Of a DNA stretch of 64,000 nucleotides, positions 5,101 through 55,159 are shown piece after piece. The translations under genes were made by a program, and so were the position numbers. Source of the stretch: Pelosinus sp. UFO1 (lineage in GTDB: Bacteria; Bacillota; Negativicutes; DSM-13327). Below the pieces are notes generated by a model. That model had not been told where the DNA came from and did no database searches. It saw only the letters and a list, made by a program, of their open reading frames with translations. Where the stretch lies: contig NZ_CP008852.1 in assembly GCF_000725345.1 (NCBI RefSeq), positions 1,765,693 to 1,829,692 of the forward strand, in the 5' to 3' direction. Every line of letters starts with the position of its first letter. Positions within the stretch are counted from its first letter, which is position 1.

Positions 5101-5465
5101 GATTAAACCTCCTAGTAATAAACAATTTTTGCATATATTTTCTTTTATGCTGGCTATAAAAGAAAAAACGCCCCTCGTAAAGAGGGACGATATGACCGTG
5201 GTACCACCCAAATTTAACCTTAAGACAAAAATAAAAAGCGATACCGATAAGGGACGAATCACCGCGGTACCACCCTAGTTTTGATCATAAGATCAGCTCT
5301 ATGTCTGTAACGTAGACGTACGGCAAGACCTACTGTAAATTTCAGTCTGCAGTTCGGGAAGGAACTTCATTATGTATTTTCAACTAGTTTACACCAACCA
5401 CTAGCTCTCTGTATGAAAATAACATAATTACTTTTTTCCGTCATCACCAATAACGATATGGTATT
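5101..5465 (-). promoter_or_regulatory. T-box leader with two antiterminator modules, predicted Phe specifier
   Basis: Read on the minus strand, Stem I is complete. An AGTA loop-E strand is followed by a 13-bp stem (ATTATGT/ACATAAT continuing into ATTTTC/GAAAAT), an apical AGAGA...GGTTGGTG region, and a specifier strand GAA-G-TTC-C. By the glyQS arrangement this gives UUC (Phe). The antiterminator AGGGTGGTACCGCGG is at 5261-5276. A second T-box sequence TGGGTGGTACCACGG lies at 5196-5210 with its own terminator at 5163-5189 (CGTCCCTC/GAGGGGCG plus T6). The TGGT bulge fits a tRNA with discriminator A, as tRNA-Phe has at 55156. Confidence 0.88.
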
Positions 5466-5471
5466 GTAACG

Positions 5472-5500
5472 ATTATAAAATGTTGCAACACAAATGTCAA
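5472..5500 (-). promoter_or_regulatory. Sigma-A promoter of the T-box transcript
   Basis: Perfect consensus on the minus strand: TTGACA (5495-5500), 17-base spacer, TATAAT (5472-5477). It places transcription start near 5465, giving a leader of about 365 nt. Confidence 0.85.
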
Positions 5501-5636: not shown

Positions 5637-7388
5637 ATGTCTATTTATAAAAAATTCATTCAATATTATAAACCATATCAGCGGTTATTTTATTTCGATT
5701 TATTTTGTGCATTGGTTGTTTCCTTGATCGATCTTGCATTCCCTCAGATTCTTTATTATCTTACCCATGGGATTTTTACTGGTGATGCAACTGAAATTTT
5801 GAATGTGATTGGTTTTGTCGGTGTGGGAATGCTCATCATGTACAGCATTCGTTATGCTTGCCAATATTATATCACTACTTGGGGGCACATAATGGGGGCC
5901 CGAATGGAAAGCGATATGCGTCAAGATTTATTTAACCACTATCAAAGGCTGTCCTTTTCTTATTATGACAATAATAACACCGGCGAGATGATGTCAAAAT
6001 TGGTATCTGATTTATTTGATATATCCGAATTGGCTCATCATGGGCCAGAAAATATTTTTATATCGACCATAAAGATTTTGGGCTCTTTTGCATTTTTGAT
6101 GTTGATCAATGTCAAAATGACATTGATTCTTTTTGTTGTTACCTTGCTTATGATTATTTTCAGTATTTATAAGAACAAAAAAATGAAAGCAGTATTTATG
6201 GATAACCGAAAAAAGATTGCCAGTGTGAACTCACGTGTGCAGGATAGCCTTTCCGGTATTCGTGTTGTCAAATCTTTTGCTAATGAGGATTTGGAAAGGG
6301 AAAAGTTTTGCTCTAGTAATCTTGAATTTTTGGATTCCAAGGAAGACAGTTATAAAATTATGGGTAGCTTTCATGCGGGTAATGCCTTTTTTCAAGGATT
6401 ACTATATACGGCGGTACTTGTGAGTGGAGGCTTTTTCATTGCCAATGGTAGTTTGAAAGTTGCTGATCTTGCTGTGTATGCACTATATATCGGGATTTTT
6501 ATTAATCCGATTGATGTACTGATCAATTTTACGGAACAGTTTCAAAAAGGCTATTCTGGTTTCAAACGTTTTATGGATGTGGTGGGAATAACCCCGGAAA
6601 TTCTAGATAAACCGAATGCAATAACATTGACTAATGTTGAAGGTAATATTGTCTATCAAGATGTTTCTTTTCGGTACAATCAAAATACAGGAGTGCTTCA
6701 TAAAGTAAACATTTCCATTGCGGCTGGGAAAACAGTGGCATTGGTGGGCCCTTCTGGTGGTGGAAAAACTACACTATGTTCCCTATTGCCACGCTTCTAT
6801 GATGTTACTGAAGGTGCCGTTATGATTGACGGAAAAAATGTGCGTGATGTTACGCTCAAGTCTCTGCGCAGTTCGATTGGTATTGTTCAACAGGATGTTT
6901 ATATATTCGCTGGCAGCATCGGTGATAACATTGCCTATGGTAAACCAGATGCTACCAATGCAGAAATTATAGAGGCGGCTAAAAACGCCAATATTCATGA
7001 TTTTATTATGAGCCTTGCTGATGGGTACGATAGTTACGTCGGTGAAAGAGGAACACGCCTTTCTGGTGGTCAAAAACAAAGAATTGCTATTGCTCGCGTG
7101 TTTTTGAAAAATCCTAAGATTCTTATTTTGGACGAAGCTACATCTGCTTTGGATAACGAAAGCGAACGTTATATTCAGACCTCTCTGGAACGCCTTTCAA
7201 AAGATCGTACTACCATTGTTGTGGCTCATAGACTTAGTACCATTCGGAGTGCAGATGAAATTATTGTAATCAATCACAAAGGAATTCAAGAGCGGGGATC
7301 CCATGACGAACTATTATCTTTAAATGGTCTTTACGCTAAATATTATAAGATGCAATTTGAAGGGTTGGATCAACTGCAAGACGAATAG
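5637..7388 (+). CDS. ABC exporter, fused permease-ATPase (MsbA/LmrA type)
   Basis: 583 residues. An exporter-type transmembrane domain with six helices (residues 1-310) is fused to an ATP-binding domain with Walker A GPSGGGKTT, Q-loop QQDVY, signature LSGGQKQR, Walker B ILILDEATSALD and H-loop VAHRLSTI. It should act as a homo- or heterodimer exporting lipid, peptide or drug substrates; no partner gene is adjacent. GGAGG precedes the ATG. It is divergent from the T-box/symporter unit. Confidence 0.93.
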   Translation: MSIYKKFIQYYKPYQRLFYFDLFCALVVSLIDLAFPQILYYLTHGIFTGDATEILNVIGFVGVGMLIMYSIRYACQYYITTWGHIMGARMESDMRQDLFNHYQRLSFSYYDNNNTGEMMSKLVSDLFDISELAHHGPENIFISTIKILGSFAFLMLINVKMTLILFVVTLLMIIFSIYKNKKMKAVFMDNRKKIASVNSRVQDSLSGIRVVKSFANEDLEREKFCSSNLEFLDSKEDSYKIMGSFHAGNAFFQGLLYTAVLVSGGFFIANGSLKVADLAVYALYIGIFINPIDVLINFTEQFQKGYSGFKRFMDVVGITPEILDKPNAITLTNVEGNIVYQDVSFRYNQNTGVLHKVNISIAAGKTVALVGPSGGGKTTLCSLLPRFYDVTEGAVMIDGKNVRDVTLKSLRSSIGIVQQDVYIFAGSIGDNIAYGKPDATNAEIIEAAKNANIHDFIMSLADGYDSYVGERGTRLSGGQKQRIAIARVFLKNPKILILDEATSALDNESERYIQTSLERLSKDRTTIVVAHRLSTIRSADEIIVINHKGIQERGSHDELLSLNGLYAKYYKMQFEGLDQLQDE

Positions 7389-25304: not shown

Positions 25305-25403
25305 ATATATAAGTAAAACATGCATAAATATAAATGGCTTTCACAAAAGTCTAATATGGTAGGGCGTATTCTGTTGCAAAAATACAAATACTATCCTTTA
25401 AGC

Positions 25404-25491
25404 TAATCCAGAGAGTTTGGCAAGGGTGTTTGTTCGGCCACAAGTCTATCTTGTTGCCTTGAAGCTCCTTGCCTACCTGGTAAGGAGTTTT
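25404..25491 (+). promoter_or_regulatory. PyrR-type attenuator 2
   Basis: AATCCAGAGAGTTTGGCAAG (from 25405) matches the PyrR-binding loop. A terminator hairpin CTCCTTGCC/GGTAAGGAG at 25465-25487 with a short T-run lies just before the pyrB ribosome site AGGAGG (25499-25504). Confidence 0.78.
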
Positions 25492-25511
25492 ATTTATGAG
25501 GAGGAGTGGCT

Positions 25512-35373: not shown

Positions 35374-35450
35374 TAGGGGTATAGCTCAATTGGTAGAGTA
35401 GCGGTCTCCAAAACCGTTGGTTGAGGGTTCAAGTCCTTCTGCCCCTGCCA
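35368..35450 (+). repeat. Left 83-bp direct repeat (att-like)
   Basis: Identical to 42957-43039; spans 7 bases upstream of tRNA-Trp through its CCA end. Confidence 0.92.
35375..35450 (+). tRNA. tRNA-Trp (CCA), left copy at island junction
   Basis: Complete cloverleaf with anticodon CCA and encoded 3' CCA. It is the last tRNA of the cluster and the integration target of the island; an identical copy lies at 42964-43039. Confidence 0.97.
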
Positions 35451-42956: not shown

Positions 42957-43039
42957 GCTCCATAGGGGTATAGCTCAATTGGTAGAGTAGCGGTCTCCAA
43001 AACCGTTGGTTGAGGGTTCAAGTCCTTCTGCCCCTGCCA
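42957..43039 (+). repeat. Right 83-bp direct repeat (att-like)
   Basis: Identical to 35368-35450; the match breaks immediately on both sides. Confidence 0.92.
42964..43039 (+). tRNA. tRNA-Trp (CCA), right copy
   Basis: All 76 bases identical to the left copy, so both should be functional if transcribed. Confidence 0.95.

Positions 43040-55083: not shown

Positions 55084-55159
<76 letters not shown>

Follow-up and report, generated by a model that had tools for sequence, protein, structure and literature searches.

A phenylalanine T-box leader with one Stem I, two serial modules and a putative first terminator that uses the T-box strand, upstream of a sodium/solute symporter gene in Negativicutes

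Results

Organisation of the locus

The window, by which we mean the whole 64,000-nucleotide stretch of Pelosinus sp. UFO1 DNA that was analysed, contains a gene for an SSS-family sodium/solute symporter (5100-3700) and a divergent ABC transporter gene (start at 5637, plus strand), and the leader described here sits between the two. The covariance search that had been proposed in the initial annotation gave a match to the Rfam T-box leader model RF00230 at 5453..5247 on the minus strand, with 152.9 bits (E-value 1.8e-34) against a gathering cut-off of 93 bits; the match spans Stem I through the end of antiterminator 1 and places the specifier at UUC. All the T-box leader elements named earlier, for which no strand had been given, are present on the minus strand (Table 1). 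The two T-boxes are there as well, with cores beginning at 5275 (GGGUGGUACCGCG) and 5209 (GGGUGGUACCACG) on the minus strand, although their spacing is 66 nt and not 65. Full tandem T-boxes occur widely in Bacillota (PMC12452182, in the part available to us), but the 66-nt spacing, the single Rfam match and the lack of a second Stem I make a pair of complete T-boxes practically inconceivable here.

The symporter leader has the best RF00230 score among the 21 T-boxes of the genome and is the only one in which two cores were found, 18 having one core and two having none by pattern. In the same genome, the pheS leader belongs to the same Rfam family and has a UUC specifier and one module. Another T-box of this genome (L008), with a Stem I strand GAAAUAC (Tyr), precedes a DAHP synthase-like gene. 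Elsewhere in the window, a PyrR binding site at 25391-25497 (plus strand) scores 56.8 bits, barely over its gathering score, and two tRNA-Trp (CCA) genes lie at 35375-35450 and 42964-43039 (plus strand).

The symporter itself scores 105.4 bits with PF00474 (SSF; cut-off 22.8). The earlier description, a single Stem I with a Phe specifier and a pair of serial modules preceding an SSS symporter gene, is thereby borne out. No equivalog cut-off of NCBIfam was reached (TIGR00813, 120.5 against 184), and the nearest solved relatives are carriers of choline, sugars and urea; we infer from the specifier alone that phenylalanine is transported. A 520-aa version starting at GTG in the list of open reading frames extends into the leader, and the 466-aa version was taken.

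Table 1. Elements of the symporter leader and related features in the window
Feature	Position	Strand	Basis
Promoter TTGACA-17-TATAAT	5472..5500	-	12/12 consensus matches
Stem I, with S-turn (AGUA/GAA) and distal motifs AGAGA / GGUUGGUG	5352..5447	-	RF00230 alignment
Specifier UUC (Phe), next base C	5362..5364	-	RF00230 alignment
Specifier strand GAA-G-UUC	5368-5362	-	Sequence
Stem III hairpin UGAUC-UUAU-GAUCA	5282..5295	-	RF00230 alignment; coordinates counted from sequence
Antiterminator 1, AGGG-UGGUACC-GCG...CGUCCCU	5250..5276	-	RF00230 alignment, pair counts, sequence
T-box bulge 1, UGGUACC (UGGU complementary to tRNA-Phe ACCA end)	5266..5272	-	Sequence
Terminator 1 (predicted)	5235..5276	-	Fold and complementarity test
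Terminator 1, 5' arm AGGGUGGUACCG (the T-box strand itself)	5276-5265	-	
Terminator 1, 3' arm CGGUAUCGCUUU	5246-5235	-	
Terminator 1, U-tract UUUUUAUUUUU	5227..5237	-	Sequence
Antiterminator 2, GGG-UGGUACC-ACGG...CGUCCC	5184..5209	-	Pair counts, sequence
Terminator 2, canonical, CGUCCCUC / GAGGGGCG	5169..5189	-	Fold, terminator scan, sequence
Terminator 2, U-tract	5163..5168	-	Terminator scan, sequence
Ribosome-binding site AGGAGG	5108..5113	-	Sequence
SSS-family sodium/solute symporter P0001, 466 aa	3700..5100	-	PF00474, 105.4 bits
tRNA-Phe (GAA), ending in A-CCA	55084..55159	+	ARAGORN and sequence

The specifier matches tRNA-Phe

The UUC specifier fits the tRNA-Phe (GAA) encoded in the same 64-kb window, and the UGGU of both modules matches the ACCA end of this tRNA. 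As the base after UUC is C, where the Rfam consensus has a purine, the registers GUU (Val) and UCC (Ser) were also considered. They were ruled out: GAAGUUC is constant in all of the 40 distinct double leaders assembled, including one before an ABC binding protein gene (L045), and the next base varies between C, A and U. Registers other than UUC are further ruled out by the Tyr versions of the leader, which alter exactly those three positions (GAAGUACC, GAAAUACC). In a wider set of leaders, UUC was read in 54 of the 55 that precede symporters; the specifier of a symporter paralogue (L148) was read as AUC (Ile). This paralogue and a second one (L089) lie on the same contig (genome G016, contig 92); in both, the modules are doubled and the first terminator is of the T-box-pairing type, and the Stem I of L089 is odd.

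The predicted first terminator pairs with the T-box strand

In the usual T-box terminator the 5' arm is the 3' strand of the antiterminator (CGUCCC). Module 2 follows this rule and module 1 does not, since its predicted terminator uses the T-box 5' strand. The arm CGGUAUCGCUUU, placed immediately before and into the U-tract UUUUUAUUUUU, can pair with AGGGUGGUACCG, the T-box strand including UGGU, over 12 bp that enclose an 18-nt loop. A GGGACG arm is absent, as the initial annotation had noted, and CGUCCC is not the partner; a 3' arm is nevertheless present in CGGUAUCGCUUU, which had been overlooked.

This pairing was compared across leaders. Among 43 double leaders, the arm forms a better duplex with the T-box strand than its shuffled versions do (p<=0.05) in 40 first modules, against 0/43 second modules and 0/20 single T-boxes, with the reservation that the arm of L044 was measured at a later U-run, so that one of the 40 positives is not a terminator 1 arm. 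The mean complementarity is -15.8 kcal/mol for the real arms and -6.6 kcal/mol for the shuffled ones, and the arms are of 32 distinct kinds. The misses are L043, L048 and L073, although the fold of L073 nevertheless pairs six of the seven bulge letters. In folds up to the U-tract, at least five of the seven UGGUACC bulge letters are paired with the arm in 42/43 first modules, in 0/43 second modules and in 0/20 single T-boxes. Dinucleotide shuffling of this short arm is not a discriminating control, because at least five bulge pairs are kept in 59% of 2150 shuffles.

Once 34 leaders had been aligned, the helix of terminator 1 was found in 85.2% of cells; a shift of the pairing partners by 1-3 columns lowers the pairing of the whole structure from 89.5% to 41-55%. 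No two-sided covariation was seen in the terminator 1 helix of this alignment, which follows from the invariance of the T-box strand. Taken alone, the terminator 1 hairpin of the window does not stand out from shuffled sequences (z -0.81, 41/200 equally good), and a simple terminator scan with a loop limit of 8 does not list it. The case for terminator 1 is hence comparative, resting on conserved pairing between leaders, and not one of bare-hairpin stability.

The wider set points in the same direction: the arm pairs with the T-box strand in 64 of the 70 Phe, Tyr or Ile (non-Trp) double leaders of the class, and the six misses (L136, L138, L140, L152, L159 and L160) are all symporter leaders. 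The two arm tests are not independent, since their loci overlap; L073 and L140 are identical in sequence. Judged from complementarity and folds, the first terminator is of a different type, one formed with the T-box strand, and is conserved.

The first terminator had initially been described as poor, with decay of the module as one explanation. The absence of the canonical GGGACG arm and the weakness of the bare hairpin agree with a relic beside which module 2 alone would act, but UGGU, the antiterminator pairs, the arm and the U-tract are intact in symporter leaders of many families. Conservation of the arm (40/43 and 64/70) and of the antiterminators thus contradicts a relic, and we regard decay as highly improbable; what had looked like a poor hairpin is predicted to be a distinct, T-box-strand type of terminator.

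Both antiterminators are conserved and the second terminator is canonical

In the alignment of 34 leaders both antiterminators are kept, with 95.8% of cells paired, which argues at the sequence level against the refuting case named in the initial annotation, that of one module alone functioning as antiterminator. Five antiterminator pairs have changed on both sides, compared with 1.8 in shuffled alignments, none of 500 being as high, and sliding the partners lowers the pairing to 49-73%. UGGU is conserved in both modules. From the sequence and the pair counts, antiterminator and terminator are predicted to be mutually exclusive in each module. Terminator 2 is canonical (CGUCCCUC-uuuac-GAGGGGCG-UUUUUU), and only 3/200 shuffles fold equally well, in agreement with the strong second terminator described earlier. 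In the window, the calculated energies of terminator and antiterminator are -14.2 and -3.3 kcal/mol for module 1, and -13.9 and -3.1 kcal/mol for module 2, a wide margin in either case.

The conserved strands also permit pairings between the modules. T-box 1 could pair with the CGUCCC of module 2 in 99.3% of cells (135/136), and in the window this helix is longer than that within module 1 (6 versus 4 contiguous A2 pairs). The tRNA end might then stay on T-box 1 while the antiterminator swaps its 3' strand, giving up the CGUCCC of module 1 for that of module 2, with T-box 2 as a spare or a helper. We consider such an exchange unlikely. Other constraints already keep these strands almost invariant, which leaves the pairing test with little power; moreover, module 2 retains a complete T-box of its own and A2 pairs that covary within the module, and the A2 helix within module 1 is the longer one in about one third of the leaders.

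Alternatively, as GGUACC is self-complementary, a free T-box 1 might grip T-box 2 and block antiterminator 2, so that module 1 would serve chiefly as a decoy and reinforce the off state of module 2. The pairing of T-box 1 with T-box 2 is the minimum-energy structure in 22 of 43 folds of the full two-module region, that of the window included (-37.4 kcal/mol), and is calculated at -19.6 kcal/mol, compared with -14.7 kcal/mol for T-box 1 with the arm. The pairing of T-box 1 with another T-box 1, however, scores alike (-19.2 kcal/mol), and the preference is therefore a general effect of the T-box sequence; furthermore, the arm is transcribed earlier than T-box 2, and neither the arm nor its U-tract would be explained. 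A decoy role for module 1 thus appears distinctly improbable.

Double leaders in Negativicutes and beyond

Relatives of the symporter were found by name in Pelosinus, Sporomusa, Propionispora, Anaerospora, Veillonella and other genera. Among the 31 such relatives, 23 have a double leader, two a single T-box and six none, two of the six having less than 430 nt of upstream DNA. Control of an SSS symporter by a Phe T-box, called uncommon in the initial annotation, is so in general but not within the Negativicutes. A stretch before T-box 2 (5210-5226, minus strand; AAGGUUAAAUU) is alike in most symporter leaders, though without a Stem III.

A covariance model of the two modules matched 100 of 380 genomes of the class at E<=1e-6, weak matches including single T-boxes. 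Ninety loci from this search (L090-L179) were examined: 76 have two cores 50-110 nt apart, and the other 14, with no such pair, were left out. Seventy of the 76 are not trpD leaders and are spread over 66 genomes and, by family labels, 17 families. Comparison with relatives, which had been suggested as a check for module duplication, thus finds the doubling in relatives as well, and as far as leader sequences can tell the architecture spans the Negativicutes.

In the phylum, 46 of 398 genomes match the two-module model. The loci examined outside the class are mostly single T-boxes, and L182 gave no core. Of the phylum matches examined, only three, L181 (before an aminotransferase gene), L183 (another SSS symporter, UUC) and L196 (DAHP synthase, UUC), have two cores and were added to the wider set; in all three there are two modules, and pairing between arm and T-box is absent. 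The Phe double modules of L183 (1508-1690) and L196 (1508-1670, both oriented), with ordinary first terminators outside the Negativicutes, are perhaps independent doublings. The clostridial symporter orthologues L077 and L080 have one module each.

Genes other than symporters also lie behind double leaders. These are TrpX-like ABC binding proteins, whose leaders have a UUC or a UAC (Tyr) specifier and are sometimes neighbours, and, with UUC, amino-acid ABC binding proteins of Pfam SBP_bac_3, prephenate dehydratase (pheA; L086) and DAHP synthase (L161). This set of genes supports an aromatic amino acid, chiefly phenylalanine, as the signal. Adjoining TrpX-like ABC operons with near-identical double modules, one UUC (Phe) and one UAC (Tyr), were observed at L083 and L085, and again at L130 and L131, both of genome G316.

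Discussion

T-box leaders with more than one decision point are of several kinds. A class with duplicated terminator-antiterminator elements was reportedly described by Vitreschak et al. in 2008; the symporter leader may be set apart from it by its first terminator on the T-box strand. The accessible part of a 2020 review (PMC7583486) names partially tandem T-boxes, which likewise have one Stem I and two antiterminator/terminator modules, the arrangement found here, and calls their mode of action unknown. Full tandem T-boxes (thrS, trp) also repeat a decision before one gene (PMC12452182, in the part consulted), but there every copy carries a separate Stem I and hence reads a separate tRNA. 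In translational T-boxes (anti-sequestrator type), as covered in the same portion of PMC7583486, the off state is likewise a competing helix and not an altered ligand site; they mask the ribosome-binding site, whereas the off helix of the symporter leader ends in a U-tract. The single Phe T-box of pheS shares UUC and the Rfam family with it and differs in having one module and a terminator on the antiterminator 3' strand.

In the Negativicutes, the Trp double leaders that precede trpD likewise combine one Stem I (UGG) with two modules, 70-88 nt apart. Their first terminator is however canonical, with an arm complementary to the T-box in 0/6 (L163, L164, L165, L171, L177 and L178), against 64/70 of the non-Trp leaders, and doubling and the T-box-pairing terminator are therefore separate traits.

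A sodium symporter is mentioned in the available part of PMC2494555 among T-boxes unusually far from the start codon, and may be related. In the portion seen of PMC9481103, a T-box that joins one reader to two platforms does not figure in the table of tandem riboswitches with identical ligands. In the literature searched, including parts of PMC7583486, PMC9413887, PMC2494555, PMC7778990, PMC12452182 and PMC9481103, we found no description of a first terminator that pairs with the T-box, which does not prove its absence in print. The two-gate architecture is already known, and the first terminator that sequesters the T-box appears, within the literature searched, to be a new variant.

Our comparison of leader sequences shows one Stem I with a UUC specifier, two conserved antiterminators and two predicted terminators, with a T-box-pairing arm conserved in Negativicutes. 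The leader is probably a transcriptional Phe T-box in which one tRNA reader, Stem I, serves two serial decision points, the first with a terminator on the T-box strand. A stop of transcription at terminator 1, a single tRNA at both gates and a hand-over between them are the steps that we infer from this organisation. When tRNA-Phe is charged, T-box 1 would be left free and its strand would fold onto the downstream arm to form terminator 1, and polymerases leaking past it would be caught by the strong canonical terminator 2. When it is uncharged, the tRNA held by Stem I would pair its ACCA end with the UGGU of T-box 1, so that antiterminator 1 is built and the tRNA end itself covers the strand that terminator 1 needs as its 5' arm. 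A second, identical decision would follow at T-box 2. Since success would be needed twice, one would expect little basal expression and a steep response.

Once the polymerase is past the first gate, the arm of terminator 1 may fold back on T-box 1 and thereby release the tRNA end, which T-box 2 could then take up; the difference between terminator 1 (-14.2 kcal/mol) and antiterminator 1 (-3.3 kcal/mol) means that refolding could pay for this transfer. We put forward tentatively, as a speculative extension, that the tRNA end competes directly with terminator 1, and that the hairpin later strips it off and passes it to T-box 2, so that one tRNA molecule might be read twice, giving aromatic amino acid uptake in the Negativicutes a steep, proofreading-like response to starvation.

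The symporter leader bears on the mechanism of partially tandem T-boxes, an open question in the part of PMC7583486 available to us. The single-module pheS leader and the two-module symporter leader, both Phe T-boxes of one genome, make a compact natural test, and in relatives a Phe and a Tyr version stand next to each other before adjoining ABC transporters. Two readings of one tRNA would make the response the product of two decisions, and a hand-over by the terminator 1 arm, if real, would add to what is known of riboswitches a new means of letting go of a ligand and using it again while transcription proceeds.
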